From assembly GCA_037833965.1 (NCBI GenBank), contig AP031353.1:29142501-29206500 (forward strand): a stretch of 64,000 nt of DNA. Direction: 5' to 3'. The position numbers and the translations under genes are program-made. A model generated the notes under the pieces. It saw only the letters and a program-made list of their open reading frames with translations. It had not been told where the DNA came from and did no database searches. Numbering within the stretch: the stretch's first letter is position 1; every line of letters starts with the position of its first letter. This DNA is from Marchantia polymorpha subsp. ruderalis. Lineage: Eukaryota; Streptophyta; Marchantiopsida; Marchantiales; Marchantiaceae. Of this stretch, positions 43,495 to 61,375 are shown in pieces.

Positions 43495-43503
43495 TATAAA
43501 ATA
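43495..43503 (+). promoter_or_regulatory. TATA box of A LTR1
   Basis: TATAAAATA lies 37 bp after the stop of the LTR ORF and about 980 bp before the LTR end. This places U3 at roughly 4.3 kb and R/U5 at about 0.95 kb, so the ORF is entirely in U3. Confidence 0.65.
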
Positions 43504-44253: not shown

Positions 44254-44284
<31 letters not shown>

Positions 44285-44400: not shown

Positions 44401-44501
44401 CCCCGTGTGTTCCTCTGTCCCTGTGGGTTCGACCTTTCTACCACTATATTGCAGTTTTAGCCTTTAGTGGGTTATTACATAAGAAGCCGACAACTTCTTT
44501 T

Positions 44502-44519
44502 TGGCGCCGCTGCCGGGGA
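44502..44519 (+). other. primer-binding site, tRNA-Asp, A internal 1
   Basis: TGGCGCCGCTGCCGGGGA matches the complement of the 3' end of plant tRNA-Asp (TGGCGCCGTTGCCGGGGA) at 17 of 18 positions. It lies 22 bp after the LTR end and 46 bp before the gag ATG. tRNA-Asp priming is common in plant non-chromovirus Ty3/gypsy elements. Confidence 0.85.
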
Positions 44520-44565
44520 CAGTTGCGTCAACACCGGGGTTTTTACGAGCAGCCATGCTCGGTGA

Positions 44566-47400
44566 ATGTCGACTGGGGCTAGCGGGAGCAACCTAAGTGC
44601 TAGAGCTGTCCGCAGGTTCCGACGAGATTCAGAGAAGGCCGTGGAAGAGACACGGCGTCAAAACAAGAAAACACCAAAAAGAGTACCTAAGCCTAGTTCG
44701 GCCGACATCCTTGGGGAACCTACCCCCGGCAACTCGGAACCAAACTTGGTGCTTACAGTTCTACTAGATATTCCTTGCACGGACCCGCCTCGTAAATTAG
44801 AAACGACCGCCCGAGAACCGTCGACAGACACACCGATGGCGGACGGACAAGCCAATGTGCGGCTACCTCAGCCGATTACTAAACATTCCTACCCAAAGTA
44901 TAAAGGGAGTGGGGATGACGACGATGCAGATTCATACATCAAGTTGTTCGAATCGGTGTCTATTGCCAATCGCGAGATCGCAGACGACGACCGACTAAGG
45001 ATCTTTCCAAGCCTTCTGCGGAAGAAAGCGAGGAGTTGGTACAATCACGAGAGCATCGATCCGACTGGGTTGACAACATGGGCCCAGCTGAAGGAGAAGT
45101 TCCTTCGCCGCTTCCGCGAGCTCGGCTACGACAGCCGGGTTTTGACAAAGTTACGTAATTTGCAGCGAGAGAAGAAGGAGAGTCTGCGTGACTACACTGA
45201 GAGATTTCTGGACCTCCTTGACAGAATACCGAAAACAGGACCAGGGTCCCCTTTCTCGGTACAACAAGCTGTGGATTGGTACGTGACCGGTTTAACTCGG
45301 GAGATGGAGACTTTTTGCCGACGCAGCAAGTGCGACACTATTGAGGATGTGATTGCATCGGCAGAAGCCTTTGAAACTTCCACTCTCAACCGAAGAGGGA
45401 GAGAGAGACGGGAGTCGAAGGAGCGAAAACCGAAGGGAGGGCGAAGACGACGTAGAGGTACAACTCCGTCATCGGAGGAATCGTCTTCGGACGAGAACCG
45501 TTCCTCTTCCGAAGAAGAGGAAACCTCATCGTCGGAGGAGGAGAAGAAGAGGAAGAAGCATGGGGCAGCGAAGAAAAAGGGCACCCGACGAGTGACTACG
45601 GACAGAGCGCCGGGAGACATAGCCTCGAAGATGGAGACCCTTGTGAAGGACTTCGCCGATCTCAAGGTTCAAGTGGTAGGCGGGCATGATCGCCGAAAAT
45701 CACCCGGGAGAGTGCGAGCGAACTTATGGTGTACTACGTGCGGGGCGGTGGGACATGCAAACACCGAGTGCCTTACCACCCGTCCGTCATATCCAGTCAA
45801 CGCAGTAGAGTGGGCACAACCGTACTATGGAGAGCACCCCCAGTACTATGGAGAGGCTAGCGAAGAGACCGCCTACGCCGTCCAGTCGGTTCCTACCCCT
45901 ACTGCAGTTTCAGCAATGCAAGTCCCACGATATCATCCGGTGGATCGGGCCACTACAGTACCCGTGAGGCGGAGAGCACCTCCAGGGACGTTTGACCCAC
46001 CGCCACCGCGAGCCTGTTATAATTGCGGGGAAGTTGGACACTTCTCACCGCAGTGTCCCCATCCAAAAAGGCGAAACGATTATGTTCCGACATGTAGTAA
46101 TTGCAAGAAGACCGGGCATACTGCGCCAGAGTGTGATCAGCCACCAGTCCCTCGGCCAGCGGTACGATTTGTGAACCCTCCTGCCAAGGAGGACGTCCAA
46201 GTTAACCAGGTCGAAGTAGGTTCAGACGGGGATGACGAAGACGAAGAATGGCCGGCGGAAGAGGTTATGTGCGCACGGGTCGAAACTCGTAGTTCCAAGA
46301 AATCGAAGGAGCAAGAGCGTGACACTCGCAAGCACGAACGGAGAACCGACGACCGGACGGGAAAAGGGAAGGAGAAGACATCCCGCAAGTCCGACTTGCG
46401 ACCTGCACGGAAGTCTTCGGCTACGCGAGAGGCACCAGCAGTGCGCCCCCAGACAGCAGTCGAGGACGAGCCAGTGCGCTTGCTGAAACGGGACTATGCT
46501 CCGGATATCCGCAACGAGGTAACCAACCTGTTGAAGGAAGCGATCCGCACTCAAAAGGACCCACCGCGGCAAGACTTGACATCCTTCCTTGGGGCGAAGT
46601 TGGCAGCCACCGTGGAACCTCGCAGAGCGTCGCCGCCGACCCCGGCGACCCAACGCGCCCACTATGACTTGGTCGAAGATCTCGGGAGTCGAAAAGTGAA
46701 CATCACGTTCAAGCAGCTCTTGGAGGACAATAAGACGTATCGGAGAATGTTGATGCTTTCGCTACGGCGTCCGCGGAAGCCGCGCGCATCCACATCCTCT
46801 CAAGTATATCAAGTGGAGAGCGAAGACCAAGGGCCACCAGAGATCGATGTGGAAATAGCAGGGTGTTGTGTACGCAGGGTGCCAATCGACTCTGGATCAG
46901 GAGTCAACATAATGACGGAGGATACCGCGAGAGCCTTGGGGTTCAGTCAATACGAACCCTCGAAGCGTGTGTTGAGATTAGCGGATCAGACGCGGAGAAT
47001 GCCTGCAGGTATGCTGCGCAATGTCAAGACAATCATCGGGGATGCGGACTTTCGGTTGACGTATATCATCCTTCAACCGATGATGAAGCAGGGCTATGAC
47101 GTTCTGCTCGGGCGACCATGGCTATATGGCGCACAAGTCAGATGTGATTGGCGAAGGCATCGCCTTAAGTTTCCCCATCCTTCGGAACCGACCAAAACCA
47201 TTACGGTGCCCTGGAATAGGGTCAGACCCGAAGGAGAGACCCCATCGACAAGTGCAGGTTACACATCGGGCGGGGACAGTGAGTCGACCGCGCGATCGGA
47301 TTCCAGTGGTACCGAATCCGATTATTTCGTGGGATTCGTTGCCTGCTGTTCGGTGGGAGAAGAAGAAGAGCCGGAAGCTATTCAGCCGGAAGACGAATAG
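44566..47400 (+). CDS. A Gag-protease, copy 1
   Basis: 944 codons from the ATG at 44566. The basic N-terminus is followed by a retrotransposon Gag domain at about 115-275 (ARSWYN, the FLRRFREL segment), an acidic-serine and basic linker (290-345), and three CX2CX4HX4C zinc knuckles at 389-402, 484-497 and 510-523. A charged linker leads to an aspartic protease at about 755-880 with active-site Asp775-Ser-Gly-Ser and the LLGRPWL segment at 847-853. The frame ends in an acidic tail and a TAG stop (47398-47400) in a leaky context, with pol continuing in the same frame. Gag would package element RNA in cytoplasmic particles and the protease would mature the polyprotein. Three knuckles is more than the usual one or two. 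Confidence 0.93.
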   Translation: MSTGASGSNLSARAVRRFRRDSEKAVEETRRQNKKTPKRVPKPSSADILGEPTPGNSEPNLVLTVLLDIPCTDPPRKLETTAREPSTDTPMADGQANVRLPQPITKHSYPKYKGSGDDDDADSYIKLFESVSIANREIADDDRLRIFPSLLRKKARSWYNHESIDPTGLTTWAQLKEKFLRRFRELGYDSRVLTKLRNLQREKKESLRDYTERFLDLLDRIPKTGPGSPFSVQQAVDWYVTGLTREMETFCRRSKCDTIEDVIASAEAFETSTLNRRGRERRESKERKPKGGRRRRRGTTPSSEESSSDENRSSSEEEETSSSEEEKKRKKHGAAKKKGTRRVTTDRAPGDIASKMETLVKDFADLKVQVVGGHDRRKSPGRVRANLWCTTCGAVGHANTECLTTRPSYPVNAVEWAQPYYGEHPQYYGEASEETAYAVQSVPTPTAVSAMQVPRYHPVDRATTVPVRRRAPPGTFDPPPPRACYNCGEVGHFSPQCPHPKRRNDYVPTCSNCKKTGHTAPECDQPPVPRPAVRFVNPPAKEDVQVNQVEVGSDGDDEDEEWPAEEVMCARVETRSSKKSKEQERDTRKHERRTDDRTGKGKEKTSRKSDLRPARKSSATREAPAVRPQTAVEDEPVRLLKRDYAPDIRNEVTNLLKEAIRTQKDPPRQDLTSFLGAKLAATVEPRRASPPTPATQRAHYDLVEDLGSRKVNITFKQLLEDNKTYRRMLMLSLRRPRKPRASTSSQVYQVESEDQGPPEIDVEIAGCCVRRVPIDSGSGVNIMTEDTARALGFSQYEPSKRVLRLADQTRRMPAGMLRNVKTIIGDADFRLTYIILQPMMKQGYDVLLGRPWLYGAQVRCDWRRHRLKFPHPSEPTKTITVPWNRVRPEGETPSTSAGYTSGGDSESTARSDSSGTESDYFVGFVACCSVGEEEEPEAIQPEDE

Positions 47401-47406
47401 CAATTA
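47398..47406 (+). promoter_or_regulatory. leaky stop between Gag-protease and Pol: TAG CAATTA
   Basis: The stop TAG is followed directly by CAATTA, which fits the tobamovirus readthrough signal TAG-CAR-YYA at every position. Pol is open in the same frame from the next codon, with no other stop until 50239. Readthrough would insert an amino acid at TAG and make a fusion at low frequency, giving Gag surplus over Pol. The identical arrangement occurs at 58495-58503. Confidence 0.8.
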
Positions 47407-50241
47407 ACTGTGGGACTGGGAAGGAGTGAGACGAGTCACACCGAGGGCATTGTCGACCCTAGTGACTGTCACGAAGTACAACTCAGTCCCGACAAGTGCT
47501 TGAAGGTATCAAGCGCAGTGAGAGGAGACGAGCTAAGGAAAGTACAGGCATTCCTTAGCCATTATGTCGACGTCTTCGCCTGGAAGATCGAAGACATGAA
47601 GGGGATACCTGCACGGTATGGGGAACACCGCATCGATTTATTGGACGACTCAGTACCCATACGACAGCGCCAGTATCGCCTCAACCCAAAATACTCCTTG
47701 CTAGTTAAGGAGGAGATAGATAAGTACTTGAGTGCTGGTATTATTTACCCTGTGCTCAGCAGTGAGTGGGTGTCGCCGATTGTTATCGTACCCAAGAAGT
47801 TGACGGGTAAGATACGAGTGTGTCAGGATTTCCGGAAGTTGAATGCAGCAACACGCAAGGATCATCACCCGTTACCATTCACGGATGCCATTCTAGACCA
47901 TGTCGCAGGACATGAATGTTATAGCTTCCTGGATGGGTTCTCAGGTTACAATCAGGTGTCTATCCGGGAACAGGACAAGGATAAAACTACGTTCACACCC
48001 GACTGGGGAACTTACGCATACCACAAGATGCCCTTCGGTCTGTGCAACGCGCCTGCCACCTTTCAACGGATGATGACCAATATCTTCCAGGAACAACTGA
48101 GGAAGTTCCTGGAAATATTCATAGATGACTTCTGTGTCTTTGGGAAGCGGTCTGAACACCTAAGTCACTTGAAGCAGACCTTCGATAAATGTAGAGAGAG
48201 CAGTTTATCACTGCATCCCGAGAAGTGTTTTTTCTTTATGACTAGTGGGATCTTGTTGGGTCATCGGGTCTCGGCAGACGGCATTGCGGTGGACATCGAG
48301 AAGGTCAAGGTTATACTCGAGCTTGAGCCACCCACGAATCTAAGAGAGCTGCGAGCATTCCTGGGTCATGTGGGCTACTACCGAAGATTCATACACCTGT
48401 ATGCAATACTGGCGGCGGACCTGACCAAGTTGTTGAAGAAGGACGAGCCTTATGCTTGGGGTGCGAACCAGCAGTCAGCATTTGAGGCTCTTAAAGCGAA
48501 ACTCACGACTGCTCCCGTACTAAGGAGTCCAGACTGGAATCGACCATTCCATGTTTACGTTGACACCTCTGCATTCGCCATCGGTGTAGTACTGAGTCAA
48601 AAGGATGACAACAAAAAGGACTACCCGATCTACTTCGCGAGCCGACAGCTGTCTCTAGCAGAGCGGAAGTACACCACGACGGAGAGAGAAGCGTTGGGGA
48701 TGGTGTACTCCTGTAAAAAGTTCCGTCACTACCTAATCTGCTACGAGTTTGTGTTCCATGTGGACCACTACGCATTGCAACACCTAGTCAAGAAAGCCGA
48801 CCTATCCGGTCGGATCGCCAGGTGGGTGTTGTTACTACAAGAGTTCACCTACACAGTCCAGACAAGGAAAGGGGTGCACCACGAAAATGCGGATTACTTG
48901 TCCCGATTATGGACTCAGCCGACAGAGGAGGAATTGGTGGACGATTTTCCAGATGAAGAGTTATTTCAGTTGTCTGCAGGACATGAGTCCCGCTATGCCG
49001 ACCTGTATCGATATCTGCTAACTCTCCAGTGTCCCGTAGGCATGGATTTGGAACAGCGAACTGTCTTTATTCATAAGGCAGGCCCGTACCAACTCCAGCA
49101 GGGGGTTTTGTTCAAGAAGATGGCAGATGAGCGCTTATGCAGATGCCTGGAGGAATCAGAGGTACCAAGAATAGTGAGTGCGATGCATACAGAGGAGGCG
49201 GGTGGACACTATGCCACCAGGAACACGGTCACAAAGATTCTAAATGCGGGGTATTGGTGGCCGACCATGTTTAAGGATGTTCTCGATTACATCCGCAAGT
49301 GCGACAGTTGCCAGAGGACGGGGAGACCGACGCCTACAACACGCTGGCCCCTGACTCCCATCATGCCTCTAGCACCTTTCGAAAAGTGGGGCATTGACTT
49401 TGTAGGGCCGATACAACCAGTGACTAGAAGTACACGAAGGCGCTACATTCTGGTAGCAACGGACTACGCCACCAAAATGGTAGAGGCCAGGGCCACCAGA
49501 AGGGATGATGCTGCCACAGTGGCAGCCTTCTTGTTTGAGTCGATCATCACACGCTACGGATGTCCCTTAGAGCTAGTCAGCGACCGGGGCACGCATTTTC
49601 TGAATCAGATCATCGAAGATCTGACACGGTATTTCCACATCAAGCACCGGAAGACTACTCCATACAATCCCAAAGCAAATGGACTGACGGAGAAGTCCAA
49701 TGGTCTGCTGTGTAAAATACTACTCAAGGTCACGGTGAATCACGCTCACGACTGGGATACGAAGCTAGCAGCCGCTCTATGGGCGTACCGGACAGCTGAG
49801 AAGATCACGACCAAACAGACACCATACTTTCTGGTGTATGGGCAACACCCGATCCTCCCGATTGAATTTGAAGTACCCACCCAACGAACGTTGGATTTGC
49901 AGAGGATGGGCGCAGAGGAGAGTCAGCTCTACAGGTTACAGGAGGTCACGCTGCTGGATGAGAGGAGACGGGACGCCGAAGATCGCACCAGGAAAATCCA
50001 GCTCCGCCGAAAGGAGAGATACGATAAAAGGATCAAACCGGTACTCCTGCAGGCGGGTGATTTGGCATTGCTCTACGACAGCAGGCATGCCAGATTCCCA
50101 GGCAAACTGCACCTAAGATGGATGGGACCTTACAGGGTTGTCGAAGTCTTCCCGAATGGATCCATCCAACTTGCGGACCTGGCCGGCGATTTGTTAGGCA
50201 CCCGAGTGAACGGGTGGCGGTTGAAGAAATACCACATGTGA
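47401..50241 (+). CDS. A Pol (RT, RNase H, integrase), copy 1
   Basis: The frame is open from the codon after the leaky stop. The numbering here starts at the GTG at 47410. There is no ATG early in the frame, which fits expression by readthrough. Reverse transcriptase lies about 100-285 with the LDGFSGY segment around Asp175 and FIDD at 237-240. RNase H has Asp385, Glu426, Asp452 and Asp495. Integrase has the zinc site (His592, His600, Cys631, Cys634) and catalytic Asp663, Asp725, Glu761. The C-terminus has a GPY module (906-908) and ends NGWRLKKYHM, without a chromodomain. All catalytic residues are present. The stop lies only 37 bp before LTR2, leaving no room for a third gene outside the LTR. 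Confidence 0.93.
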   Translation, partial: QLTVGLGRSETSHTEGIVDPSDCHEVQLSPDKCLKVSSAVRGDELRKVQAFLSHYVDVFAWKIEDMKGIPARYGEHRIDLLDDSVPIRQRQYRLNPKYSLLVKEEIDKYLSAGIIYPVLSSEWVSPIVIVPKKLTGKIRVCQDFRKLNAATRKDHHPLPFTDAILDHVAGHECYSFLDGFSGYNQVSIREQDKDKTTFTPDWGTYAYHKMPFGLCNAPATFQRMMTNIFQEQLRKFLEIFIDDFCVFGKRSEHLSHLKQTFDKCRESSLSLHPEKCFFFMTSGILLGHRVSADGIAVDIEKVKVILELEPPTNLRELRAFLGHVGYYRRFIHLYAILAADLTKLLKKDEPYAWGANQQSAFEALKAKLTTAPVLRSPDWNRPFHVYVDTSAFAIGVVLSQKDDNKKDYPIYFASRQLSLAERKYTTTEREALGMVYSCKKFRHYLICYEFVFHVDHYALQHLVKKADLSGRIARWVLLLQEFTYTVQTRKGVHHENADYLSRLWTQPTEEELVDDFPDEELFQLSAGHESRYADLYRYLLTLQCPVGMDLEQRTVFIHKAGPYQLQQGVLFKKMADERLCRCLEESEVPRIVSAMHTEEAGGHYATRNTVTKILNAGYWWPTMFKDVLDYIRKCDSCQRTGRPTPTTRWPLTPIMPLAPFEKWGIDFVGPIQPVTRSTRRRYILVATDYATKMVEARATRRDDAATVAAFLFESIITRYGCPLELVSDRGTHFLNQIIEDLTRYFHIKHRKTTPYNPKANGLTEKSNGLLCKILLKVTVNHAHDWDTKLAAALWAYRTAEKITTKQTPYFLVYGQHPILPIEFEVPTQRTLDLQRMGAEESQLYRLQEVTLLDERRRDAEDRTRKIQLRRKERYDKRIKPVLLQAGDLALLYDSRHARFPGKLHLRWMGPYRVVEVFPNGSIQLADLAGDLLGTRVNGWRLKKYHM

Positions 50242-50265
50242 GTGTTCGCGTGGGCGCTCACAATT

Positions 50266-50278
50266 GAGGAGGGGAGCA
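50266..50278 (+). other. polypurine tract of A internal 1
   Basis: GAGGAGGGGAGCA immediately precedes the TG of LTR2 and would prime plus-strand synthesis. Identical sequence precedes LTR3 at 61363-61375. Confidence 0.85.
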
Positions 50279-50663
50279 TGTGGTACCCCACTTGTAGAAT
50301 CTGGGATTTGGGGTTCAGCAGTAAGGACAGGCACCACCCTCCCTGCGAGCTCTGCAGTTAGGACCCCTACGACGCAAGGCGCAAAACCCGCCTTCGGAGG
50401 TTGCGTCCGCGGCTGTAGGGAAACCCTCCATAATTAGGTCAACCCTCGGGCGCCTTGACCAAGTTAGGGTCCCGTTGGAAAGAGCTTGACGCACTGATTC
50501 CAACGAGCCCAAGAACGCTTGGAACGGATGAGGACTTAGGGAGTTATCACTATTGGAAGAAACGGAGGCGGTCGCCTACGGCGGAAAGAGTTCGCCACCG
50601 GCGCGAATTCCGCCTACACGGAAGGGGGAATCAAGTTTTGTCCTATGCGCGGACGAAGGCGTT

Positions 50664-51135
50664 CGCCTGTGCACAGGCGAAGTAGGGTTAGGGGAGGCGC
50701 GAAGTCCGCCTACGCACAGGCGCTCGCCTGTGCACAGGCGCTCGCCTGTGCACAGGCGCTTCGGCGTCGGCGGAAAATCCGCCTTGGGCCCTAGAAATGC
50801 GCCTTGTGAGGTAGAAAGTGTACGGCGCCTTCCGCGCCAGCGCAGCGCCGCGTACGGCGGAAGAGCCGCCAGAGTAATCAAATCGGTACGGACCATGCGG
50901 ACGGGACGGATGGATGCGCTCTTGGACGGACGGAGTTGCGGCGGCGGAAGCGCCGACGAAGAGACAAGGAACGGACAGACTGGACGGAGACGGCTGACCA
51001 CGGTCAACGCCTTCCGCGCCAGCGCGACGCCGCGCACGGAATTCGCCTGCGCACAGGCGACAGCCTGTGCACAGGAGGATGAAGTTCCGTGCCGGCGGAG
51101 CATCCGCCGAAGCTCCTGCCTGCGCACAGGCAGGA
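50664..51135. repeat. palindromic repeat cluster in LTR2, CGCCTGTGCACAGGCG
   Basis: The perfect 16-bp palindrome occurs at 50664-50679, 50725-50740 and 50743-50758. Related forms lie near 51045-51075 and in a longer near-palindrome (CTCCTGCCTG...CAGGCAGGAG) at about 51113-51136. LTR1 has the same elements at 24736 and 24797 and LTR3 at about 61761 and 61822, but only LTR2 has the third tight copy. Spacing is irregular apart from the 18-bp pair. Confidence 0.85.
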
Positions 51136-51670
51136 GTTGAACTTTTGTCCGACATGCGGACACACGCGTCAAGGCAGAGGGGGATTGGCCGAGGGGCGGT
51201 ACGAACAAGTGTACCGCGCAAGGCGGAAAACTCGCCTTCGGCGCTACGCCCCCATGTCCGCGGGGTAATACGCTCGCGGAGTTCAAATCCGCCAATTCGA
51301 GCGTGAGAGTTTAATCGACGACGGCGGAGCGTGAAGCCGCGCGTGAGAGCGAAGACCGTTCCAGCGTACAGCCGGCGCGGCCATCAAGTGAGACGTTCTT
51401 CACGAGCAAGAGCCGACCATGACCTTCGACCGGGCGGCGGAGAACGTCCCATTCTTGAATTCGCGATTCCAATCTCTTGTGCGCGCTGCGCGCATCCATC
51501 TGCTGGCTGCTAAACATTCTCGACGTCGTCGCACAGGAGATTTCTTGTTGATTGAGGGAGAAGTGAATGCGCGTGATTTGGAATTGAGGGCGATTAGAGT
51601 TTGCCGAGAGAGAAAGAAGCTCGGGCGGTGCGGAAGTAGAATGAGCGGGCGAGCGAACCCCAGGAACGCA

Positions 51671-53116
51671 ATGACGAGACCGAGCAGATTGCGGATGGTG
51701 CCACTTCGCCTACCACAGAACGGGCTGCGCGCTTTCGAGGAGCGCTTAATAGCAAGAAAGCTCGATTTCTTGCTATGGGGATGGAACTACATCTGTGCGA
51801 ATATGGTGCGCGAGTGGCTAGAGCCACAGGGACCACCCTCGCGCGGATTGCGTCCGCATGTTGATCGGTGGACAGTCCAAGATTGGGCGCAGGCGTTGGG
51901 AAGATGTGCTGGCATGCCAGGGCATCTCCTTTTCGACAGTGAGAGCATCAAGGTGACCAAGCAGGAAGAGGCGCAATTTGTGGAGCTGTTCAAGACCGGG
52001 AGGTCTACCAAGAATGGGTACAGGACCCGTGATTACAAGGATCGATTTCGCCGTACTTTGTCCGCGGCGCTGATGCAATTACTGCAGCCGCACCGCGCCT
52101 GCTACATCACATTGTGGCAGGTCTCTTTTGTGGAGTGCGTCATCGAGGGAACTCCAATTCACTGGGCGAGCATCCTGCACAGGGTGATGCGACAGCACGC
52201 GTTTGAGGAGAAGGGGGGAACTCTAAACCATCTTTCTCCTTTCCTCATCAATTTTTATCGACAGCGGAATTGTTTGACAGCGGCGGAGCTTGAACATTTT
52301 CCGCCATTGTCCATCGACCATCCCGGGAAGTATGTGCGGGAGAATGAGGTCGACACTGATGCAGAGGAGTCACCGACTTCTAGCCATCAAGGCGGAGGGA
52401 CGAAGGGAGACACACTCCTGCAGCACGAGTGCCGCGGAAGCGGCGATGGAGGGAAGAGTCTGAAGAGGAGCAGCAACAAGAACCCTCTGCTCCCATTCGA
52501 CCGCGGCCGCTGTGCGAGTCATACAGCCGGCCGAAGCAGAAGGCACGCAGACTGGTGTTACCAGCCGACAGTGCGGACACGGCGACGATTGCGACGGAGG
52601 AAGGAAGTGCGTCGCCAGAGAAGCATGAGGAAGCGCGGACGACCGCAGGAGAAACGGGCCACGCTGCAACCTCGACGGGAGAGAGGCCGCCTACGGGCCA
52701 AGGGCCTCCGGAGTTACCACGTGCGATGCGGACAGATGTTCCGTTTGCGCACAGACGAGCCTCCGCGGACGGACGAGCCTCCGCGGACAGGCGATCACAA
52801 GTGGACGTGGATCTACGCTTACGCGTGGGAAGGAGCAGTCCGCCTGTGCACAGGCGCTCACCTGTGCACAGGTCGCCTGTGCACAGGACACCTCCACACG
52901 TGCCGCCTGTGCACAGGCAAGAATCACCCCCGTTCCAACGTAGGAAGGGGAAGGAGCCGGCGGAAGAACCGCCTACGAGACACCGGCCCTCGGGGCCAGA
53001 CCCTCCGGCGCACCACGCGCCGCAATTTGCGCCTTCGGCGCCAGGGCCTTCGAGCCGAGGAGATACGAGCAGGGATCGTGCGGAGGCCGCACCATCGGCG
53101 GGAAGTCCGCCGATAG
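51671..53116 (+). CDS. LTR2-encoded ORF, N-terminal part
   Basis: The frame is open from 51419, but I choose the ATG at 51671 because both old copies align their first conserved residues (Q/R-L-x-M/I-V/I-P-L) to an ATG at this place. The first 240 or so residues form a helical, Trp-rich globular domain: the LDFLLWGWNYI segment, VREW, RPHVDRW, ESIKVTK, RDYKDRFRR, LWQVSFVE, IHWASILHRVMRQHAFEE, NHLSPFLINFYR. It resembles, by impression only, the helical plant transposon-associated domain seen in ORFs of Athila-like elements. I could not confirm a family. Beyond about 52385 this frame reads Arg-rich sequence that is out of frame with the conserved protein, which continues in the frame of the next entry. 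Lying in U3, it would sit downstream of pol in the genomic RNA. Confidence 0.6.
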   Translation: MTRPSRLRMVPLRLPQNGLRAFEERLIARKLDFLLWGWNYICANMVREWLEPQGPPSRGLRPHVDRWTVQDWAQALGRCAGMPGHLLFDSESIKVTKQEEAQFVELFKTGRSTKNGYRTRDYKDRFRRTLSAALMQLLQPHRACYITLWQVSFVECVIEGTPIHWASILHRVMRQHAFEEKGGTLNHLSPFLINFYRQRNCLTAAELEHFPPLSIDHPGKYVRENEVDTDAEESPTSSHQGGGTKGDTLLQHECRGSGDGGKSLKRSSNKNPLLPFDRGRCASHTAGRSRRHADWCYQPTVRTRRRLRRRKEVRRQRSMRKRGRPQEKRATLQPRRERGRLRAKGLRSYHVRCGQMFRLRTDEPPRTDEPPRTGDHKWTWIYAYAWEGAVRLCTGAHLCTGRLCTGHLHTCRLCTGKNHPRSNVGRGRSRRKNRLRDTGPRGQTLRRTTRRNLRLRRQGLRAEEIRAGIVRRPHHRREVRR

Positions 53117-54555
53117 ATGCGCCTTCGGCGGTAGGGCCTATAGGCCAAGGGACATCGGGCGAGCGGCCCCCGGCCATGTCGCCTTCGGCGATGGATGTCC
53201 GCGGCGCTACGCCTGCGGCGGACAAGGCGCCGGCAATTGCGCCTGCGCACGGGCCGGGCACAGCCCCCACGGACCGATCAAGGGAGCAGCAACAGACGGA
53301 GGAGCGGAGTGACTGTCCGCGGGATGAAATTTCGATGCGCGATGCGCAATCAAACCCCGCGCAGCCACCCTCCGCTCGATCGCCTTCGGCGGCGGGCGAC
53401 GGCGGCAGAGAGGACGCGGTAGACAACCAACAAGCGAGCGACGGGGATGCCGCACGGGTACATTCGCCTTCCGCCTTAGACATTGGGACGAGCAGCGAGG
53501 CTGCAGCCGTGCCTTCGCAGGCAGCACACGTCGATGACGTGCAGCCCCACTCGGGGCAGTCGCCGACGCAATCAATGGCGACTGAAATTCTCCACTCGGA
53601 TGATGACGACGGAGGCTCCACGGAAGAAATGTCAGGAGCAGAAGACACCGAGGAGGAGGAGGAGGAAATTGTTGGAGCGCCGGCGGCGGTGCTCTCTGAG
53701 CAGGTGATTCCGTTGCTGAGGTACTTGGATCGCAAGGTCGATAAATACGCCGACCCACTCCAGCCGGGATCTTACATCGAGTTAGTGCGCAGGCGGACTC
53801 GCACTAAAGTCCACACCAGCAAGCTGTTAGCTAGAGTGGACCAGGAGTTGAGGGAATTGAAGGAGAAGCATGCATGCTTGTGGGGTCAGTATAAACTTAA
53901 TCAGAAATTCTACAAGCACTCCGAGAAGATGAAGGATGAGAAACTGGACGAGCTCACCAAGGAGCAGGTGAAGGTCAAGGAAGCACTCATTTCTGAGCAG
54001 GCCCAGAATCGGATTTTGTCAGAGGAGCTCGTGCGACAGACGCGGTTGTTGGAACAATGTCAGCTCGCACGGCAGGCGGATGAAGAGTTAATCCGCAGGT
54101 TACAGTCAGAGTGTGGCGAATTGAGAGCGCAACGTGCTGAAGCCGAATCGCAATTAGTGATAATTGAAGAGGATCGCAGGAAGGAGGCGGATCGCACGAA
54201 GGTGGAGACGGCGAGGCGTGTCGCCCACTGTCTCAAGGGCTACGCCCACTGGGAAGTGAAGGCGCAGGAGAAACTCACACTGCGTGAGTTTGAATTGCGC
54301 GCAGCCGGGTTGTTGTCAGGCGACAGTAGGAGTCGGCGGAAGGTAGCAAAGAAGCTCGATGCCTTTCTGTCGAAGGCACAGGATACCATGTCCGCCCTCG
54401 AAGTGGAGGTGTCCGCGGCGTTGCAGCGTTTGGGACTGCGCAGTCGAGCGGAAGATTGGCAGGGTAGGGAGTTAGTGCGCGGCAGTCGGCCGCGCAGGAG
54501 ACGTAGTACAGGTTCCGCGGAGGGTAGTGTAGCGTGGTTCCGTGCAGGCGTGTAG
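52429..54555 (+). CDS. LTR2-encoded ORF, C-terminal part (P/R-rich linker and coiled coil)
   Basis: A 708-codon open frame, opening at a GTG, with no ATG nearby. It starts in the PRKRRW segment, which in the old copy at 15506-16566 is in one frame with the N-terminal domain, so it is the second part of one ancestral protein of roughly 950 residues. The order is basic patches (RPKQKARRLVLPA), a long Pro/Arg/Ser-rich disordered linker including PVHR repeats encoded by the palindromes (52843-52918), an acidic patch (EDTEEEEEE), a coiled coil of about 200 residues rich in Glu/Lys/Leu/Gln (from the RKVDKYADP segment), and a basic tail (RPRRRRS). It ends 37 bp before the TATA box. Role unknown. The one-base difference between parts may be decay or a frameshift. 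Confidence 0.6.
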   Translation: MPRKRRWREESEEEQQQEPSAPIRPRPLCESYSRPKQKARRLVLPADSADTATIATEEGSASPEKHEEARTTAGETGHAATSTGERPPTGQGPPELPRAMRTDVPFAHRRASADGRASADRRSQVDVDLRLRVGRSSPPVHRRSPVHRSPVHRTPPHVPPVHRQESPPFQRRKGKEPAEEPPTRHRPSGPDPPAHHAPQFAPSAPGPSSRGDTSRDRAEAAPSAGSPPIDAPSAVGPIGQGTSGERPPAMSPSAMDVRGATPAADKAPAIAPAHGPGTAPTDRSREQQQTEERSDCPRDEISMRDAQSNPAQPPSARSPSAAGDGGREDAVDNQQASDGDAARVHSPSALDIGTSSEAAAVPSQAAHVDDVQPHSGQSPTQSMATEILHSDDDDGGSTEEMSGAEDTEEEEEEIVGAPAAVLSEQVIPLLRYLDRKVDKYADPLQPGSYIELVRRRTRTKVHTSKLLARVDQELRELKEKHACLWGQYKLNQKFYKHSEKMKDEKLDELTKEQVKVKEALISEQAQNRILSEELVRQTRLLEQCQLARQADEELIRRLQSECGELRAQRAEAESQLVIIEEDRRKEADRTKVETARRVAHCLKGYAHWEVKAQEKLTLREFELRAAGLLSGDSRSRRKVAKKLDAFLSKAQDTMSALEVEVSAALQRLGLRSRAEDWQGRELVRGSRPRRRRSTGSAEGSVAWFRAGV
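52843..52918 (+). repeat. palindrome cluster inside the LTR ORF
   Basis: Four CCTGTGCACAGG cores (52843-52918), the first a complete CGCCTGTGCACAGGCG, encode repeated PVHR in the ORF frame. The same cluster is at 26897-26973 in LTR1 and 63922-63998 in LTR3. Confidence 0.85.
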
Positions 54556-54591
54556 CGTAGTGCAGTGTAGTGCTAGGTAGGACTTAGAAGG

Positions 54592-54600
54592 TATAAAATA
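54592..54600 (+). promoter_or_regulatory. TATA box of A LTR2
   Basis: TATAAAATA, identical in position and context to 43495-43503. It would drive transcription of internal 2. Confidence 0.65.
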
Positions 54601-55350
54601 GTTCCAGGCGTTTTGCCTGGGGTTCTTTCCCAAACTCAGAAGTATAGATCAGGAACCCATTTCCTTTGCGTGTTTGTGTCCTTGAGTTCTGTCACCACGC
54701 AGGAGGAGTTACAACTTAGCGTTCCGCATTTTGTAGCTGAAGGCCTTCGGCCGAATGTTCAGAGCTAGTACATTGGTTAGAGACTTGAGTAGTTCGGATC
54801 TGCACCTGCGGGTGACTGCCGATGCTCAGAGCCAGTGACTAGTTAGATACTTGAACAGTTTCGCCCCTACACCTTCGAGTGTTTCTTTCTGATTGTACTC
54901 CTTTGGGATTTTTCCCCTGAATGCCAAAGTGACGTTTTGCTACTTCGTGTAAGCCTTGGTTGTAAATTCAGGTTACGCTGCAGCAGATGCCTTGAGGGTA
55001 ACCCCTGTAGTATTTCTGGGAATGACAAGTGCCTGAGAATTCAAACTCTTCAATAGACTGTTGTTGTGTTACTGGAATGTTTCACAGTGAGTCCTTCAGT
55101 GTGGACCTGTGTTCTCTGCGCGTTTTGTGAGTTGAGAGTGTTGTTCACCGCGTCTGAGTGACTTCGATCCGAAGTAGGTAGTCCAAACCGGGTTTCCTAC
55201 ACTAGCAGCAAGCTAGTGGAAGCGTTGTAAAAGCCGGAGTTGGAAGTCACTGCCCGCAGCTTTGCCGAGTGTGCTCGTGAGAGACTTTCCCCCTGAAATC
55301 TTGAAGTAGAGGTCCTAACGGATCTCTGGGTTGTGTTTCTGTAGTTTCAG

Positions 55351-55381
<31 letters not shown>

Positions 55382-55598
55382 GCTGCACTGTGCGACCTCC
55401 GAGTGCGCTCCGAGTGGACACTTGCAGTATTTCTGGGAGTGACAGTCGCCTGAGAATTCAAACTCCTCAATAGTCTGTTAAAACGTGACACTTTGTACCC
55501 CGTGTGTTCCTCTGTCCCTGTGGGTTCGACCTTTCTACCACTATATTGCAGTTTTAGCCTTTAGTGGGTTATTACATAAGAAGCCGACAACTTCTTTT

Positions 55599-55616
55599 TG
55601 GCGCCGCTGCCGGGGA
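55599..55616 (+). other. primer-binding site, tRNA-Asp, A internal 2
   Basis: Identical to 44502-44519. Confidence 0.85.
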
Positions 55617-55662
55617 CAGTTGCGTCAACACCGGGGTTTTTACGAGCAGCCATGCTCGGTGA

Positions 55663-58497
55663 ATGTCGACTGGGGCTAGCGGGAGCAACCTAAGTGCTAG
55701 AGCTGTCCGCAGGTTCCGACGAGATTCAGAGAAGGCCGTGGAAGAGACACGGCGTCAAAACAAGAAAACACCAAAAAGAGTACCTAAGCCTAGTTCGGCC
55801 GACATCCTTGGGGAACCTACCCCCGGCAACTCGGAACCAAACTTGGTGCTTACAGTTCTACTAGATATTCCTTGCACGGACCCGCCTCGTAAATTAGAAA
55901 CGACCGCCCGAGAACCGTCGACAGACACACCGATGGCGGACGGACAAGCCAATGTGCGGCTACCTCAGCCGATTACTAAACATTCCTACCCAAAGTATAA
56001 AGGGAGTGGGGATGACGACGATGCAGATTCATACATCAAGTTGTTCGAATCGGTGTCTATTGCCAATCGCGAGATCGCAGACGACGACCGACTAAGGATC
56101 TTTCCAAGCCTTCTGCGGAAGAAAGCGAGGAGTTGGTACAATCACGAGAGCATCGATCCGACTGGGTTGACAACATGGGCCCAGCTGAAGGAGAAGTTCC
56201 TTCGCCGCTTCCGCGAGCTCGGCTACGACAGCCGGGTTTTGACAAAGTTACGTAATTTGCAGCGAGAGAAGAAGGAGAGTCTGCGTGACTACACTGAGAG
56301 ATTTCTGGACCTCCTTGACAGAATACCGAAAACAGGACCAGGGTCCCCTTTCTCGGTACAACAAGCTGTGGATTGGTACGTGACCGGTTTAACTCGGGAG
56401 ATGGAGACTTTTTGCCGACGCAGCAAGTGCGACACTATTGAGGATGTGATTGCATCGGCAGAAGCCTTTGAAACTTCCACTCTCAACCGAAGAGGGAGAG
56501 AGAGACGGGAGTCGAAGGAGCGAAAACCGAAGGGAGGGCGAAGACGACGTAGAGGTACAACTCCGTCATCGGAGGAATCGTCTTCGGACGAGAACCGTTC
56601 CTCTTCCGAAGAAGAGGAAACCTCATCGTCGGAGGAGGAGAAGAAGAGGAAGAAGCATGGGGCAGCGAAGAAAAAGGGCACCCGACGAGTGACTACGGAC
56701 AGAGCGCCGGGAGACATAGCCTCGAAGATGGAGACCCTTGTGAAGGACTTCGCCGATCTCAAGGTTCAAGTGGTAGGCGGGCATGATCGCCGAAAATCAC
56801 CCGGGAGAGTGCGAGCGAACTTATGGTGTACTACGTGCGGGGCGGTGGGACATGCAAACACCGAGTGCCTTACCACCCGTCCGTCATATCCAGTCAACGC
56901 AGTAGAGTGGGCACAACCGTACTATGGAGAGCACCCCCAGTACTATGGAGAGGCTAGCGAAGAGACCGCCTACGCCGTCCAGTCGGTTCCTACCCCTACT
57001 GCAGTTTCAGCAATGCAAGTCCCACGATATCATCCGGTGGATCGGGCCACTACAGTACCCGTGAGGCGGAGAGCACCTCCAGGGACGTTTGACCCACCGC
57101 CACCGCGAGCCTGTTATAATTGCGGGGAAGTTGGACACTTCTCACCGCAGTGTCCCCATCCAAAAAGGCGAAACGATTATGTTCCGACATGTAGTAATTG
57201 CAAGAAGACCGGGCATACTGCGCCAGAGTGTGATCAGCCACCAGTCCCTCGGCCAGCGGTACGATTTGTGAACCCTCCTGCCAAGGAGGACGTCCAAGTT
57301 AACCAGGTCGAAGTAGGTTCAGACGGGGATGACGAAGACGAAGAATGGCCGGCGGAAGAGGTTATGTGCGCACGGGTCGAAACTCGTAGTTCCAAGAAAT
57401 CGAAGGAGCAAGAGCGTGACACTCGCAAGCACGAACGGAGAACCGACGACCGGACGGGAAAAGGGAAGGAGAAGACATCCCGCAAGTCCGACTTGCGACC
57501 TGCACGGAAGTCTTCGGCTACGCGAGAGGCACCAGCAGTGCGCCCCCAGACAGCAGTCGAGGACGAGCCAGTGCGCTTGCTGAAACGGGACTATGCTCCG
57601 GATATCCGCAACGAGGTAACCAACCTGTTGAAGGAAGCGATCCGCACTCAAAAGGACCCACCGCGGCAAGACTTGACATCCTTCCTTGGGGCGAAGTTGG
57701 CAGCCACCGTGGAACCTCGCAGAGCGTCGCCGCCGACCCCGGCGACCCAACGCGCCCACTATGACTTGGTCGAAGATCTCGGGAGTCGAAAAGTGAACAT
57801 CACGTTCAAGCAGCTCTTGGAGGACAATAAGACGTATCGGAGAATGTTGATGCTTTCGCTACGGCGTCCGCGGAAGCCGCGCGCATCCACATCCTCTCAA
57901 GTATATCAAGTGGAGAGCGAAGACCAAGGGCCACCAGAGATCGATGTGGAAATAGCAGGGTGTTGTGTACGCAGGGTGCCAATCGACTCTGGATCAGGAG
58001 TCAACATAATGACGGAGGATACCGCGAGAGCCTTGGGGTTCAGTCAATACGAACCCTCGAAGCGTGTGTTGAGATTAGCGGATCAGACGCGGAGAATGCC
58101 TGCAGGTATGCTGCGCAATGTCAAGACAATCATCGGGGATGCGGACTTTCGGTTGACGTATATCATCCTTCAACCGATGATGAAGCAGGGCTATGACGTT
58201 CTGCTCGGGCGACCATGGCTATATGGCGCACAAGTCAGATGTGATTGGCGAAGGCATCGCCTTAAGTTTCCCCATCCTTCGGAACCGACCAAAACCATTA
58301 CGGTGCCCTGGAATAGGGTCAGACCCGAAGGAGAGACCCCATCGACAAGTGCAGGTTACACATCGGGCGGGGACAGTGAGTCGACCGCGCGATCGGATTC
58401 CAGTGGTACCGAATCCGATTATTTCGTGGGATTCGTTGCCTGCTGTTCGGTGGGAGAAGAAGAAGAGCCGGAAGCTATTCAGCCGGAAGACGAATAG
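55663..58497 (+). CDS. A Gag-protease, copy 2
   Basis: Its translation is identical to copy 1 at 44566-47400: Gag domain, three CX2CX4HX4C knuckles, and an aspartic protease with Asp775-Ser-Gly-Ser, ending in the same TAG. I saw no amino acid difference between the copies. This is striking beside the visible divergence of LTR1 from LTR2 and implies that the internal region was duplicated recently. Confidence 0.93.
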   Translation: MSTGASGSNLSARAVRRFRRDSEKAVEETRRQNKKTPKRVPKPSSADILGEPTPGNSEPNLVLTVLLDIPCTDPPRKLETTAREPSTDTPMADGQANVRLPQPITKHSYPKYKGSGDDDDADSYIKLFESVSIANREIADDDRLRIFPSLLRKKARSWYNHESIDPTGLTTWAQLKEKFLRRFRELGYDSRVLTKLRNLQREKKESLRDYTERFLDLLDRIPKTGPGSPFSVQQAVDWYVTGLTREMETFCRRSKCDTIEDVIASAEAFETSTLNRRGRERRESKERKPKGGRRRRRGTTPSSEESSSDENRSSSEEEETSSSEEEKKRKKHGAAKKKGTRRVTTDRAPGDIASKMETLVKDFADLKVQVVGGHDRRKSPGRVRANLWCTTCGAVGHANTECLTTRPSYPVNAVEWAQPYYGEHPQYYGEASEETAYAVQSVPTPTAVSAMQVPRYHPVDRATTVPVRRRAPPGTFDPPPPRACYNCGEVGHFSPQCPHPKRRNDYVPTCSNCKKTGHTAPECDQPPVPRPAVRFVNPPAKEDVQVNQVEVGSDGDDEDEEWPAEEVMCARVETRSSKKSKEQERDTRKHERRTDDRTGKGKEKTSRKSDLRPARKSSATREAPAVRPQTAVEDEPVRLLKRDYAPDIRNEVTNLLKEAIRTQKDPPRQDLTSFLGAKLAATVEPRRASPPTPATQRAHYDLVEDLGSRKVNITFKQLLEDNKTYRRMLMLSLRRPRKPRASTSSQVYQVESEDQGPPEIDVEIAGCCVRRVPIDSGSGVNIMTEDTARALGFSQYEPSKRVLRLADQTRRMPAGMLRNVKTIIGDADFRLTYIILQPMMKQGYDVLLGRPWLYGAQVRCDWRRHRLKFPHPSEPTKTITVPWNRVRPEGETPSTSAGYTSGGDSESTARSDSSGTESDYFVGFVACCSVGEEEEPEAIQPEDE

Positions 58498-58503
58498 CAA
58501 TTA
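58495..58503 (+). promoter_or_regulatory. leaky stop TAG CAATTA, copy 2
   Basis: The same readthrough context as at 47398-47406, again with pol in frame directly downstream. Confidence 0.8.
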
Positions 58504-61338
58504 ACTGTGGGACTGGGAAGGAGTGAGACGAGTCACACCGAGGGCATTGTCGACCCTAGTGACTGTCACGAAGTACAACTCAGTCCCGACAAGTGCTTGA
58601 AGGTATCAAGCGCAGTGAGAGGAGACGAGCTAAGGAAAGTACAGGCATTCCTTAGCCATTATGTCGACGTCTTCGCCTGGAAGATCGAAGACATGAAGGG
58701 GATACCTGCACGGTATGGGGAACACCGCATCGATTTATTGGACGACTCAGTACCCATACGACAGCGCCAGTATCGCCTCAACCCAAAATACTCCTTGCTA
58801 GTTAAGGAGGAGATAGATAAGTACTTGAGTGCTGGTATTATTTACCCTGTGCTCAGCAGTGAGTGGGTGTCGCCGATTGTTATCGTACCCAAGAAGTTGA
58901 CGGGTAAGATACGAGTGTGTCAGGATTTCCGGAAGTTGAATGCAGCAACACGCAAGGATCATCACCCGTTACCATTCACGGATGCCATTCTAGACCATGT
59001 CGCAGGACATGAATGTTATAGCTTCCTGGATGGGTTCTCAGGTTACAATCAGGTGTCTATCCGGGAACAGGACAAGGATAAAACTACGTTCACACCCGAC
59101 TGGGGAACTTACGCATACCACAAGATGCCCTTCGGTCTGTGCAACGCGCCTGCCACCTTTCAACGGATGATGACCAATATCTTCCAGGAACAACTGAGGA
59201 AGTTCCTGGAAATATTCATAGATGACTTCTGTGTCTTTGGGAAGCGGTCTGAACACCTAAGTCACTTGAAGCAGACCTTCGATAAATGTAGAGAGAGCAG
59301 TTTATCACTGCATCCCGAGAAGTGTTTTTTCTTTATGACTAGTGGGATCTTGTTGGGTCATCGGGTCTCGGCAGACGGCATTGCGGTGGACATCGAGAAG
59401 GTCAAGGTTATACTCGAGCTTGAGCCACCCACGAATCTAAGAGAGCTGCGAGCATTCCTGGGTCATGTGGGCTACTACCGAAGATTCATACACCTGTATG
59501 CAATACTGGCGGCGGACCTGACCAAGTTGTTGAAGAAGGACGAGCCTTATGCTTGGGGTGCGAACCAGCAGTCAGCATTTGAGGCTCTTAAAGCGAAACT
59601 CACGACTGCTCCCGTACTAAGGAGTCCAGACTGGAATCGACCATTCCATGTTTACGTTGACACCTCTGCATTCGCCATCGGTGTAGTACTGAGTCAAAAG
59701 GATGACAACAAAAAGGACTACCCGATCTACTTCGCGAGCCGACAGCTGTCTCTAGCAGAGCGGAAGTACACCACGACGGAGAGAGAAGCGTTGGGGATGG
59801 TGTACTCCTGTAAAAAGTTCCGTCACTACCTAATCTGCTACGAGTTTGTGTTCCATGTGGACCACTACGCATTGCAACACCTAGTCAAGAAAGCCGACCT
59901 ATCCGGTCGGATCGCCAGGTGGGTGTTGTTACTACAAGAGTTCACCTACACAGTCCAGACAAGGAAAGGGGTGCACCACGAAAATGCGGATTACTTGTCC
60001 CGATTATGGACTCAGCCGACAGAGGAGGAATTGGTGGACGATTTTCCAGATGAAGAGTTATTTCAGTTGTCTGCAGGACATGAGTCCCGCTATGCCGACC
60101 TGTATCGATATCTGCTAACTCTCCAGTGTCCCGTAGGCATGGATTTGGAACAGCGAACTGTCTTTATTCATAAGGCAGGCCCGTACCAACTCCAGCAGGG
60201 GGTTTTGTTCAAGAAGATGGCAGATGAGCGCTTATGCAGATGCCTGGAGGAATCAGAGGTACCAAGAATAGTGAGTGCGATGCATACAGAGGAGGCGGGT
60301 GGACACTATGCCACCAGGAACACGGTCACAAAGATTCTAAATGCGGGGTATTGGTGGCCGACCATGTTTAAGGATGTTCTCGATTACATCCGCAAGTGCG
60401 ACAGTTGCCAGAGGACGGGGAGACCGACGCCTACAACACGCTGGCCCCTGACTCCCATCATGCCTCTAGCACCTTTCGAAAAGTGGGGCATTGACTTTGT
60501 AGGGCCGATACAACCAGTGACTAGAAGTACACGAAGGCGCTACATTCTGGTAGCAACGGACTACGCCACCAAAATGGTAGAGGCCAGGGCCACCAGAAGG
60601 GATGATGCTGCCACAGTGGCAGCCTTCTTGTTTGAGTCGATCATCACACGCTACGGATGTCCCTTAGAGCTAGTCAGCGACCGGGGCACGCATTTTCTGA
60701 ATCAGATCATCGAAGATCTGACACGGTATTTCCACATCAAGCACCGGAAGACTACTCCATACAATCCCAAAGCAAATGGACTGACGGAGAAGTCCAATGG
60801 TCTGCTGTGTAAAATACTACTCAAGGTCACGGTGAATCACGCTCACGACTGGGATACGAAGCTAGCAGCCGCTCTATGGGCGTACCGGACAGCTGAGAAG
60901 ATCACGACCAAACAGACACCATACTTTCTGGTGTATGGGCAACACCCGATCCTCCCGATTGAATTTGAAGTACCCACCCAACGAACGTTGGATTTGCAGA
61001 GGATGGGCGCAGAGGAGAGTCAGCTCTACAGGTTACAGGAGGTCACGCTGCTGGATGAGAGGAGACGGGACGCCGAAGATCGCACCAGGAAAATCCAGCT
61101 CCGCCGAAAGGAGAGATACGATAAAAGGATCAAACCGGTACTCCTGCAGGCGGGTGATTTGGCATTGCTCTACGACAGCAGGCATGCCAGATTCCCAGGC
61201 AAACTGCACCTAAGATGGATGGGACCTTACAGGGTTGTCGAAGTCTTCCCGAATGGATCCATCCAACTTGCGGACCTGGCCGGCGATTTGTTAGGCACCC
61301 GAGTGAACGGGTGGCGGTTGAAGAAATACCACATGTGA
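58498..61338 (+). CDS. A Pol (RT, RNase H, integrase), copy 2
   Basis: Its translation is identical to copy 1 at 47401-50241, with FIDD reverse transcriptase, complete RNase H residues, HHCC and DDE integrase and a GPY module. It ends 37 bp before LTR3. Both A internal regions thus keep full coding capacity. Confidence 0.93.
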   Translation, partial: QLTVGLGRSETSHTEGIVDPSDCHEVQLSPDKCLKVSSAVRGDELRKVQAFLSHYVDVFAWKIEDMKGIPARYGEHRIDLLDDSVPIRQRQYRLNPKYSLLVKEEIDKYLSAGIIYPVLSSEWVSPIVIVPKKLTGKIRVCQDFRKLNAATRKDHHPLPFTDAILDHVAGHECYSFLDGFSGYNQVSIREQDKDKTTFTPDWGTYAYHKMPFGLCNAPATFQRMMTNIFQEQLRKFLEIFIDDFCVFGKRSEHLSHLKQTFDKCRESSLSLHPEKCFFFMTSGILLGHRVSADGIAVDIEKVKVILELEPPTNLRELRAFLGHVGYYRRFIHLYAILAADLTKLLKKDEPYAWGANQQSAFEALKAKLTTAPVLRSPDWNRPFHVYVDTSAFAIGVVLSQKDDNKKDYPIYFASRQLSLAERKYTTTEREALGMVYSCKKFRHYLICYEFVFHVDHYALQHLVKKADLSGRIARWVLLLQEFTYTVQTRKGVHHENADYLSRLWTQPTEEELVDDFPDEELFQLSAGHESRYADLYRYLLTLQCPVGMDLEQRTVFIHKAGPYQLQQGVLFKKMADERLCRCLEESEVPRIVSAMHTEEAGGHYATRNTVTKILNAGYWWPTMFKDVLDYIRKCDSCQRTGRPTPTTRWPLTPIMPLAPFEKWGIDFVGPIQPVTRSTRRRYILVATDYATKMVEARATRRDDAATVAAFLFESIITRYGCPLELVSDRGTHFLNQIIEDLTRYFHIKHRKTTPYNPKANGLTEKSNGLLCKILLKVTVNHAHDWDTKLAAALWAYRTAEKITTKQTPYFLVYGQHPILPIEFEVPTQRTLDLQRMGAEESQLYRLQEVTLLDERRRDAEDRTRKIQLRRKERYDKRIKPVLLQAGDLALLYDSRHARFPGKLHLRWMGPYRVVEVFPNGSIQLADLAGDLLGTRVNGWRLKKYHM

Positions 61339-61362
61339 GTGTTCGCGTGGGCGCTCACAATT

Positions 61363-61375
61363 GAGGAGGGGAGCA
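61363..61375 (+). other. polypurine tract of A internal 2
   Basis: GAGGAGGGGAGCA directly before LTR3. Confidence 0.85.

Follow-up and report, generated by a model that had tools for sequence, protein, structure and literature searches.

A candidate third gene in the U3 region of giant long terminal repeats of a Marchantia polymorpha Ty3/gypsy retrotransposon

A stretch of 64,000 bp from the genome of Marchantia polymorpha subsp. ruderalis (assembly GCA_037833965.1, contig AP031353.1, positions 29,142,501 to 29,206,500, forward strand; hereafter the window) contains a tandem array of a Ty3/gypsy retrotransposon with giant long terminal repeats (LTRs). An earlier note on this DNA had proposed that the second LTR of the array (LTR2), about 5.3 kb long, carries a long coding frame in its unique 3′ (U3) region, and this reading was supported by our analysis: LTR2 measured 5,298 bp and contained two overlapping open frames, 51392–53116 and 52384–54555. 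The gene order was gag-protease, UAG, pol, polypurine tract and the U3 gene, which occupies U3 as far as the core promoter. We consider, with a probability of about 0.6, that this young and abundant element possesses a third gene of about 1,050 codons lying wholly in U3, which would be expressed last on the genomic RNA and encode a soluble nuclear accessory protein. LTRs are usually regarded as control DNA without coding function, and solo LTRs as lifeless remnants. In this model plant, solo LTRs are copies of a gene, and a frame of about 1,050 codons under selection fills the U3 of an element with a copy number in the hundreds.

Position of the gene within the LTR

Thirty-seven further copies were fetched from the genome (241,466,482 bases, 9 contigs), ranked by their DNA similarity to positions 51000–52500 of the window, and both LTR ends were recognised in 27 of them. 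Sixteen of these 27 were solo LTRs of 5,213–5,406 bp with identical 5-bp flanks and no internal region. Among the other 11, six continued into the side of the primer-binding site (PBS), four had a polypurine tract upstream and one had neither. In one pair, with the LTRs lying 10,885 bp apart, both outer flanks were GCTAT; one of these LTRs runs into the internal region and the other follows a polypurine tract. This pair fits a complete element of 15,971 bp, as judged from its two ends, and both of its LTRs are 5,086 bp long with 2 differing sites. In an older, related LTR family, the LTR was closed at both ends in two of three cases tried, by the target-site duplications (TSDs) GTGAG (L054/L055) and CTCCT (L051/L057), the third having no visible end; the closed LTRs were about 4.9 and 5.06 kb long, counted by hand from coordinates. 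Given the TSD-flanked solo LTRs and the closed LTRs of the older family, the segment carrying the U3 gene is part of the LTR and not of the internal region. Boundaries from copies with both flanks had been set beforehand as a test that could overturn the proposal, and they placed the gene inside the LTR in both families. The entire gene was located in U3 between true LTR ends, the U3/R boundary being set from the TATA box. Moreover, the pol stop codon at 50241 was found 37 bp upstream of LTR2, exactly as described earlier, so that everything downstream of pol is LTR.

The coding sequence had been described as a two-part frame of about 2.9 kb ending 37 bp before the TATA box. Both frames were recovered, with a span of 3.1 kb and the second stop 36 bp upstream of TATAAAA, but their division proved to be a peculiarity of this array. 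An exact-flank genome search found the unbroken site 444 times and the broken site three times, only in the three LTRs of the array, which showed that the two overlapping frames belong to a single gene, split by a one-base break in the reading frame that these LTRs share. Programmed frameshifting was considered as a cause of the two frames and was ruled out, the break being private to this array. Frames of 574–580 aa are present at four other scored places, and the two examined (L058 and L059) each carry a separate one-base break of their own. Most copies have about 1,040–1,060 codons. The start codon was supported by homologue P0132, the N-terminus of which matches from the same ATG (61% over 83 aa).

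A single open frame of at least 900 aa, counted from stop to stop, was present in 23 of the 37 fetched copies, and one of at least 1,000 aa in 16. Among 140 scored places, 101 contained a frame of at least 900 codons and 96 one of at least 1,000; these places, which include the three LTRs of the window, were drawn from 10,691 candidates by protein similarity, so that openness is biased to good copies. Compared with a copy encoding 1,046 residues (L013), length changes were in-frame in 22 of 36 copies and shifted the frame in one, in a count that excludes large deletions splitting the alignment. Part of the in-frame changes fell in a repeat tract with a unit that is a multiple of three, making this test supportive only.

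Some features of the copies weigh against the proposed reading. One or more stops were found in the frame of 12 of 36 young copies, as is nevertheless expected of decaying copies. In addition, since all three LTRs have the break, the gene was probably defective before the array inserted; in that case the protein would either not be required in cis for each insertion or have come from other copies.

Conservation and selection of the U3 frame

Selection on the frame was evaluated between and within families using the ratio of replacement to silent substitution rates (dN/dS). When the window copy was compared with six of the eight loci of the older family (L051 and L054 being omitted for gaps), the N-terminal helical domain gave dS of 1.4–2.2, dN of 0.29–0.31 and dN/dS of 0.137–0.200. 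In the same comparison, four of the five other frames gave 0.86–1.65 and one antisense frame 0.33–0.40. Older-family copies compared among themselves over this domain (15 pairs) gave dN/dS of 0.21–0.50. Furthermore, the last 150 codons of L013 and L056 differed by 31.5 silent and 19.5 replacement changes, a ratio of 0.155, and the other frames gave 0.195 for one antisense frame and 1.02–2.67 for the remaining four.

Variants among 36 young copies were also sorted by their frequency, with the window copy and L036 (the other LTR of the L035 element) omitted. Those found in a single copy comprised 192 replacement or stop changes and 137 silent ones (ratio 1.40), and those shared by three or more copies comprised 6 and 18 (ratio 0.33; Fisher p = 0.002 against single-copy variants). 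Both ratios were lower than the value of about 2.26 expected without selection from the single-copy mutation spectrum. The contrast was significant in the linker (p = 0.015) and in the C-terminal region (p = 0.026). These substitution patterns show that the U3 frame is under purifying selection in two conserved parts. The earlier note had named dN/dS near 1 and random stops in most copies as grounds for refutation, and the frame passed this test.

Three points count on the other side. The dS values of the helical domain are near saturation and its ratios are rough; the variant contrast for the helical domain alone, with 2 shared sites, was not significant (p = 0.49); and one antisense frame gave low ratios in each region. 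We regard the last as a shadow cast by the sense frame, which gave the lower ratio wherever the two were compared and is open over about 1,050 codons. The antisense ratio, together with long frames on both strands in the first kilobase of U3 and in the linker, could also be taken to mean that a GC-rich, repeat-rich U3 yields long frames by chance and that the conservation belongs to DNA elements such as promoters and palindromes. This explanation is very improbable and already contradicted by the frame-specific low dN/dS in two regions, by indels in multiples of three and by protein homology across families.

The homologue at 15506, reported earlier as one continuous frame in a much older copy, was confirmed as a relative (60% identity over 218 aa, E = 7e-100), but the frame is not intact and the copy is decayed and only partly open. 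The LTR that contains it starts with TGTGGTAACCCAC, a motif with varying flanks in several copies. Stops within the helical domain were present at seven of eight older-family loci, which counts against the proposed reading but is expected of decaying copies; these copies are relics. The distance from the TATA box to the LTR end was 991 and 984 bp in two older LTRs, compared with 984 bp in the young family. As the homologous gene lies inside the LTRs of the older family, the arrangement of a gene in the LTR predates the split of the two families.

Protein searches with the U3 frame returned 4, 123 (120 listed) and 95 matches, and all named matches among those listed, more than 100, were hypothetical proteins of M. 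polymorpha subsp. ruderalis. The U3 gene thereby accounts for over 100 annotated "hypothetical proteins" of this species. These models, the homologue in the older LTR and the low frame-specific dN/dS bear out the claim that the coding U3 is a family trait and not chance. The searches reach relatives that share short exact words, and in the first two only the top word-sharing candidates were scored; distant relatives in other plants could have been missed. With no relatives found outside Marchantia, a host origin would be untraceable, and the gene might be a captured host gene carried passively by one element. Such a gene would be expected in few copies and without sustained selection, whereas this one occurs in two or more LTR families that are separated by dS above 1, and more than 100 M. 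polymorpha models contain it; passive capture is accordingly a most unlikely origin. No single-copy syntenic host gene combining introns with these domains was noticed, although no search aimed at one was made.

Several homologues were individually informative. P0042 (Mp_8g15400), the sole listed homologue with an Mp_ name, has no helical domain and keeps the linker and C-terminal region; it is possibly a domesticated copy or a truncated model. In P0043 (M. polymorpha) the same helical domain stands on a different tail, and the domain may have been shuffled between element families. A stretch of 157 residues in the pol of the window is identical to that of a protein model of M. polymorpha subsp. 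ruderalis. The integrase part of P0168 shares 85% identity over 218 aa with the pol of the window, and in the U3 gene the identity over the helical domain is about 60% for the families compared. The U3 gene may thus evolve faster than pol, the two identities coming from different pairs.

The predicted protein, its expression and its role

The 1,046-residue protein of L013 comprises a basic N-terminus (residues 1–79), a helical domain (80–320), a Pro/Ser-rich linker (321–760) and a basic C-terminal region (761–1046), with a total pI of 9.4. The gene had been assigned an env-like position. Our results agree with this, as the frame follows pol in the sense orientation and three M. polymorpha gene models (P0121, P0157 and P0168) fuse pol to the U3 gene in that order; the likeness ends there, as no transmembrane segment was found (the top 19-residue Kyte–Doolittle mean was 1.14). 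The fusion models were set aside as evidence of splicing, being automatic predictions with differing join points, and were used for gene order only. The linker contains KR-rich motifs, such as PRKRRW and RPKQKARRL, that recur among homologues and that we take to resemble nuclear import signals.

A Pfam scan of the U3 frames, five full-length proteins and 38 aligned members gave no convincing match; the lowest E-values, both for matches below the Pfam cut-offs, were those of Extensin_1 (1.9e-4, repeat-rich linker of P0002) and CENP-K (0.0018, helical tail of P0003). A possible resemblance to PF20167 was left unsupported: there was no match in the Pfam scan and none in the genome, the latter result being weak as the control matched nowhere. 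Sequence searches of the Protein Data Bank (PDB) with the U3 protein gave no match, and the best Foldseek match of a predicted model had an E-value of 2.3. The structure search proposed for the globular domain therefore yielded models, of low confidence, and no convincing fold. The two AlphaFold models were poor (pLDDT 40.6 and 54.4), one of them mostly helical, and the heptad test of the C-terminal region was weak (z = 1.5), both of which detract from the proposed reading. With models this poor, the fold and the nuclear role of the protein are guesses. A nuclear accessory role is our guess as the most likely one, by analogy with gene23 of Grande (PMC7264820).

The mostly helical low-confidence model and the basic charge would also suit a structural protein that partners Gag as an additional capsid or nucleocapsid-like component, in place of a nuclear regulator. 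We consider this unlikely, since the protein has no Pfam match to Retrotrans_gag or any capsid family and the element already has a complete gag.

In the proposed mechanism, transcription from the 5′ LTR would produce a genomic RNA in which the gene copy of the 3′ LTR is the last gene, just upstream of the poly(A) site. Either this RNA or a derivative of it, spliced or subgenomic, would be translated. The product would be a soluble accessory protein, probably forming multimers, with a nuclear role on behalf of its own family; its targets could include the RNA, the preintegration complex or silencing. In reverse transcription, U3 is copied from the 3′ end into both LTRs. The 3′ gene would thus end up in both LTRs, and recombination between LTRs would leave the gene in solo LTRs. 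As for the origin of the arrangement, the gene may at first have been an ordinary extra one located between pol and the 3′ LTR, and a shift of plus-strand priming to a purine tract on its upstream side would have made it part of U3. Such a shift would also account for the length of the LTRs, and it offers a simple explanation of giant LTRs. Both the expression and the function of the U3 gene are inferred from sequence.

A possible but less probable arrangement is that expression of the gene starts from a separate promoter within the first 1.2 kb of the LTR, in which case every LTR, including solo ones, would be a free-standing gene unit providing the protein in trans for the family. Solo LTRs hold the gene together with 1.2 kb of upstream sequence, and the frame was at least 900 aa long in 12 of the 16 TSD-flanked ones; the window array has the gene broken in all three LTRs; and the upstream part holds a palindrome restricted, within the window, to these LTRs. 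However, the LTR of L013 has a single TATA-like box, located downstream of the U3 gene, and the equivalent upstream part of 1,244 bp, 5′ of the ATG, has none. Moreover, the openness of solo LTRs may merely reflect youth, and the mostly silent shared variants are equally explained by selection during replication. Another reading of low probability is that of the LTR as a mobile gene cassette, in which every LTR, and above all the solo LTRs, would remain a working source of a trans-acting family helper, for example against silencing. If so, the number of genes would no longer follow the number of elements, and an element with a broken copy, such as this array, could still spread.

Known systems and element architecture

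Coding sequence reaching into a retroviral U3 is known from sag of mouse mammary tumour virus and from nef/bel-type genes. Like the gene studied here, sag is a protein gene in the U3 of the 3′ LTR and the last on the genomic RNA. The Marchantia gene encodes an unrelated protein, is far longer at about 1,050 codons, and belongs to a plant retrotransposon with hundreds of copies, where it is found also in solo LTRs; neither the U3 frames in the window nor homologue P0001 gave a Pfam match of any kind, and hence none indicating homology to sag. With respect to env-like third genes, the position after pol and the sense orientation are shared and a transmembrane segment is absent.

According to the available portions of the literature on plant elements, extra open reading frames (ORFs) are placed internally or upstream of gag-pol (PMC7264820, PMC11963269, PMC6317226, PMC3485330). 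Retand (with TRP28), Grande (gene23) and RIRE2 resemble the Marchantia element in combining gag-pol with a conserved third protein downstream of pol (PMC7264820, PMC11963269), and the extra proteins of plant Ty3/gypsy elements are described in these texts as nuclear (Grande) or as having SMC domains (PvRetro13). In contrast, the extra ORF of Grande, RIRE2 and Retand is given there as antisense and in the internal region, whereas the Marchantia ORF is in sense orientation and wholly within a 5.4-kb LTR. Retand clusters are listed with LTRs of 315–1,194 bp (PMC11963269), and the Marchantia gene is also without the TRP28 domain (Transposase_28, PF04195): no match was found in the U3 ORF or the scanned homologues, and the genome scan gave only matches below the cut-off, with an uninformative control. 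ORF0 of Retrosat2, RIRE3 and RIRE8 offers another likeness: these elements are reported to have LTRs longer than 3.2 kb, and ORF0 is an extra ORF confined to their lineage and faster-evolving than pol. It is placed there upstream of the gag-pol ORF, without mention of a position in the LTR (PMC3485330), unlike the Marchantia gene. The available parts of the papers on the OTA superclade (Athila/Tat/Ogre) mention no coding LTR (PMC6317226, PMC10508981), and no report of a coding plant LTR was found among the papers listed in searches of the open-licence literature, as judged by titles and the beginnings of abstracts. For Coe1 of Beta vulgaris, the consulted excerpt describes a transposase gene "within putative LTRs" (PMC2426827), which is taken here to mean between the LTRs. 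What appears new is therefore the location of a Ty3/gypsy extra ORF inside U3 and a protein without family match; extra ORFs and retroviral coding U3 regions are already known. The role of extra ORFs in plant retrotransposons becomes testable in a genetically tractable plant.

Self-comparison of the window gave the array order LTR1, internal region, LTR2, internal region, LTR3 (Table 1). TCAAC precedes LTR1 and follows LTR3, so that the whole array behaves like a single insertion. About 122 bp just inside the left end, by hand count, are present in LTR1 and missing from LTR2 and LTR3. The assignment to Ty3/gypsy rests on the Pfam order gag, protease, reverse transcriptase (RT), RNase H and integrase in two ORFs of the same frame, and on TG...CA LTRs, a PBS, a polypurine tract and a target duplication. 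No chromodomain was found after the integrase by Pfam at E-values up to 0.5, in keeping with the non-chromovirus OTA (Athila/Tat) elements. A 48-mer across the LTR/PBS junction occurred 642 times in the genome. The PBS TGGCGCCGCTGCCGGGGAC resembles one of the tRNA-Asp type.

Table 1. Coordinates of features in the window
Feature	Position	Strand	Remarks
Left TSD of the whole array, TCAAC	24224..24228		Same 5 bases directly after the end of LTR3, coordinate 66663, outside the window
LTR1, first part	24229..27309	+	Self-comparison; true left end at 24229; interrupted by a nested element
LTR1, second part	42152..44479	+	Self-comparison; right end
Internal region, copy 1	44480..50278	+	
Gag-protease frame, copy 1, 944 aa	44566..47400	+	Retrotrans_gag, zinc knuckles, aspartyl protease-like; final codon TAG
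RT-RNase H-integrase frame, copy 1	47401..50241	+	Same frame as gag, past one TAG
Polypurine tract just 5′ of LTR2	50266..50276	+	By eye
LTR2, 5,298 bp, TG...CA	50279..55576	+	Self-comparison; boundaries backed by 16 TSD-flanked solo LTRs
U3 part 5′ of the U3 gene, with palindromes	50279..51418	+	
U3 gene, first frame in the window copy, from ATG	51419..53116	+	Stop-to-stop from 51392, 574 aa; N-terminus common to homologue P0132
N-terminal helical domain	51656..52378	+	Segment used for between-family comparison
U3 gene, second frame, 723 aa	52384..54555	+	Disordered Pro/Ser-rich linker and C-terminal region; joined to first frame in other copies
C-terminal region of U3 gene	53695..54552	+	Coiled-coil-like by eye
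TATA box (TATAAAA), main promoter	54592..54598	+	984 bp from LTR end; U3/R boundary about 30 bp downstream, inferred
Internal region, copy 2	55577..61375	+	Gag-protease 55663–58497, pol 58498–61338
PBS-like TGGCGCCGCTGCCGGGGAC	55599..55617	+	22 bp past LTR2 end
LTR3	61376..64000	+	Self-comparison; leaves the window, end at coordinate 66663
Older-family LTR	14410..18732	+	Start motif with differing flanks in other copies; no matching TSD at this copy
Open remnant of homologous U3 gene in older LTR	15506..16498	+	60% aa identity

Between gag-protease and pol, a single TAG (47398–47400 and 58495–58497) is followed by CAATTA, with both frames in register. We take CAATTA to be the tobacco-mosaic-type leaky stop context CARYYA. 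An exact-flank genome search at this site found TAG in 491 of 491 copies and no other codon. The invariant TAG and its context make it probable that Gag-Pol is produced by stop-codon readthrough.

The palindrome CCTGTGCACAGG occurs eight times in LTR2 (50666–52906), both upstream of the U3 gene and within its linker, with equivalents in LTR1 and LTR3; within the window it was found only in these three LTRs. A second palindrome, CGCCTTCGGCG, shows enrichment both in LTR2 and in the LTR of the older family.

The element nested in LTR1 (27310–42151) is itself a tandem array of the form LTR-internal-LTR-internal-LTR, with 858-bp LTRs and units that are 99.99% identical. Its gag-pol is a single frame of 1,590 aa, and its LTR recurs in inverted orientation at 13209–14069. 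Another regular array of the U3-gene element was found at G000:C2:31343097-31387857, where five copies of the frame site are spaced by exactly 11,184 bp, the length of one LTR plus one internal region.

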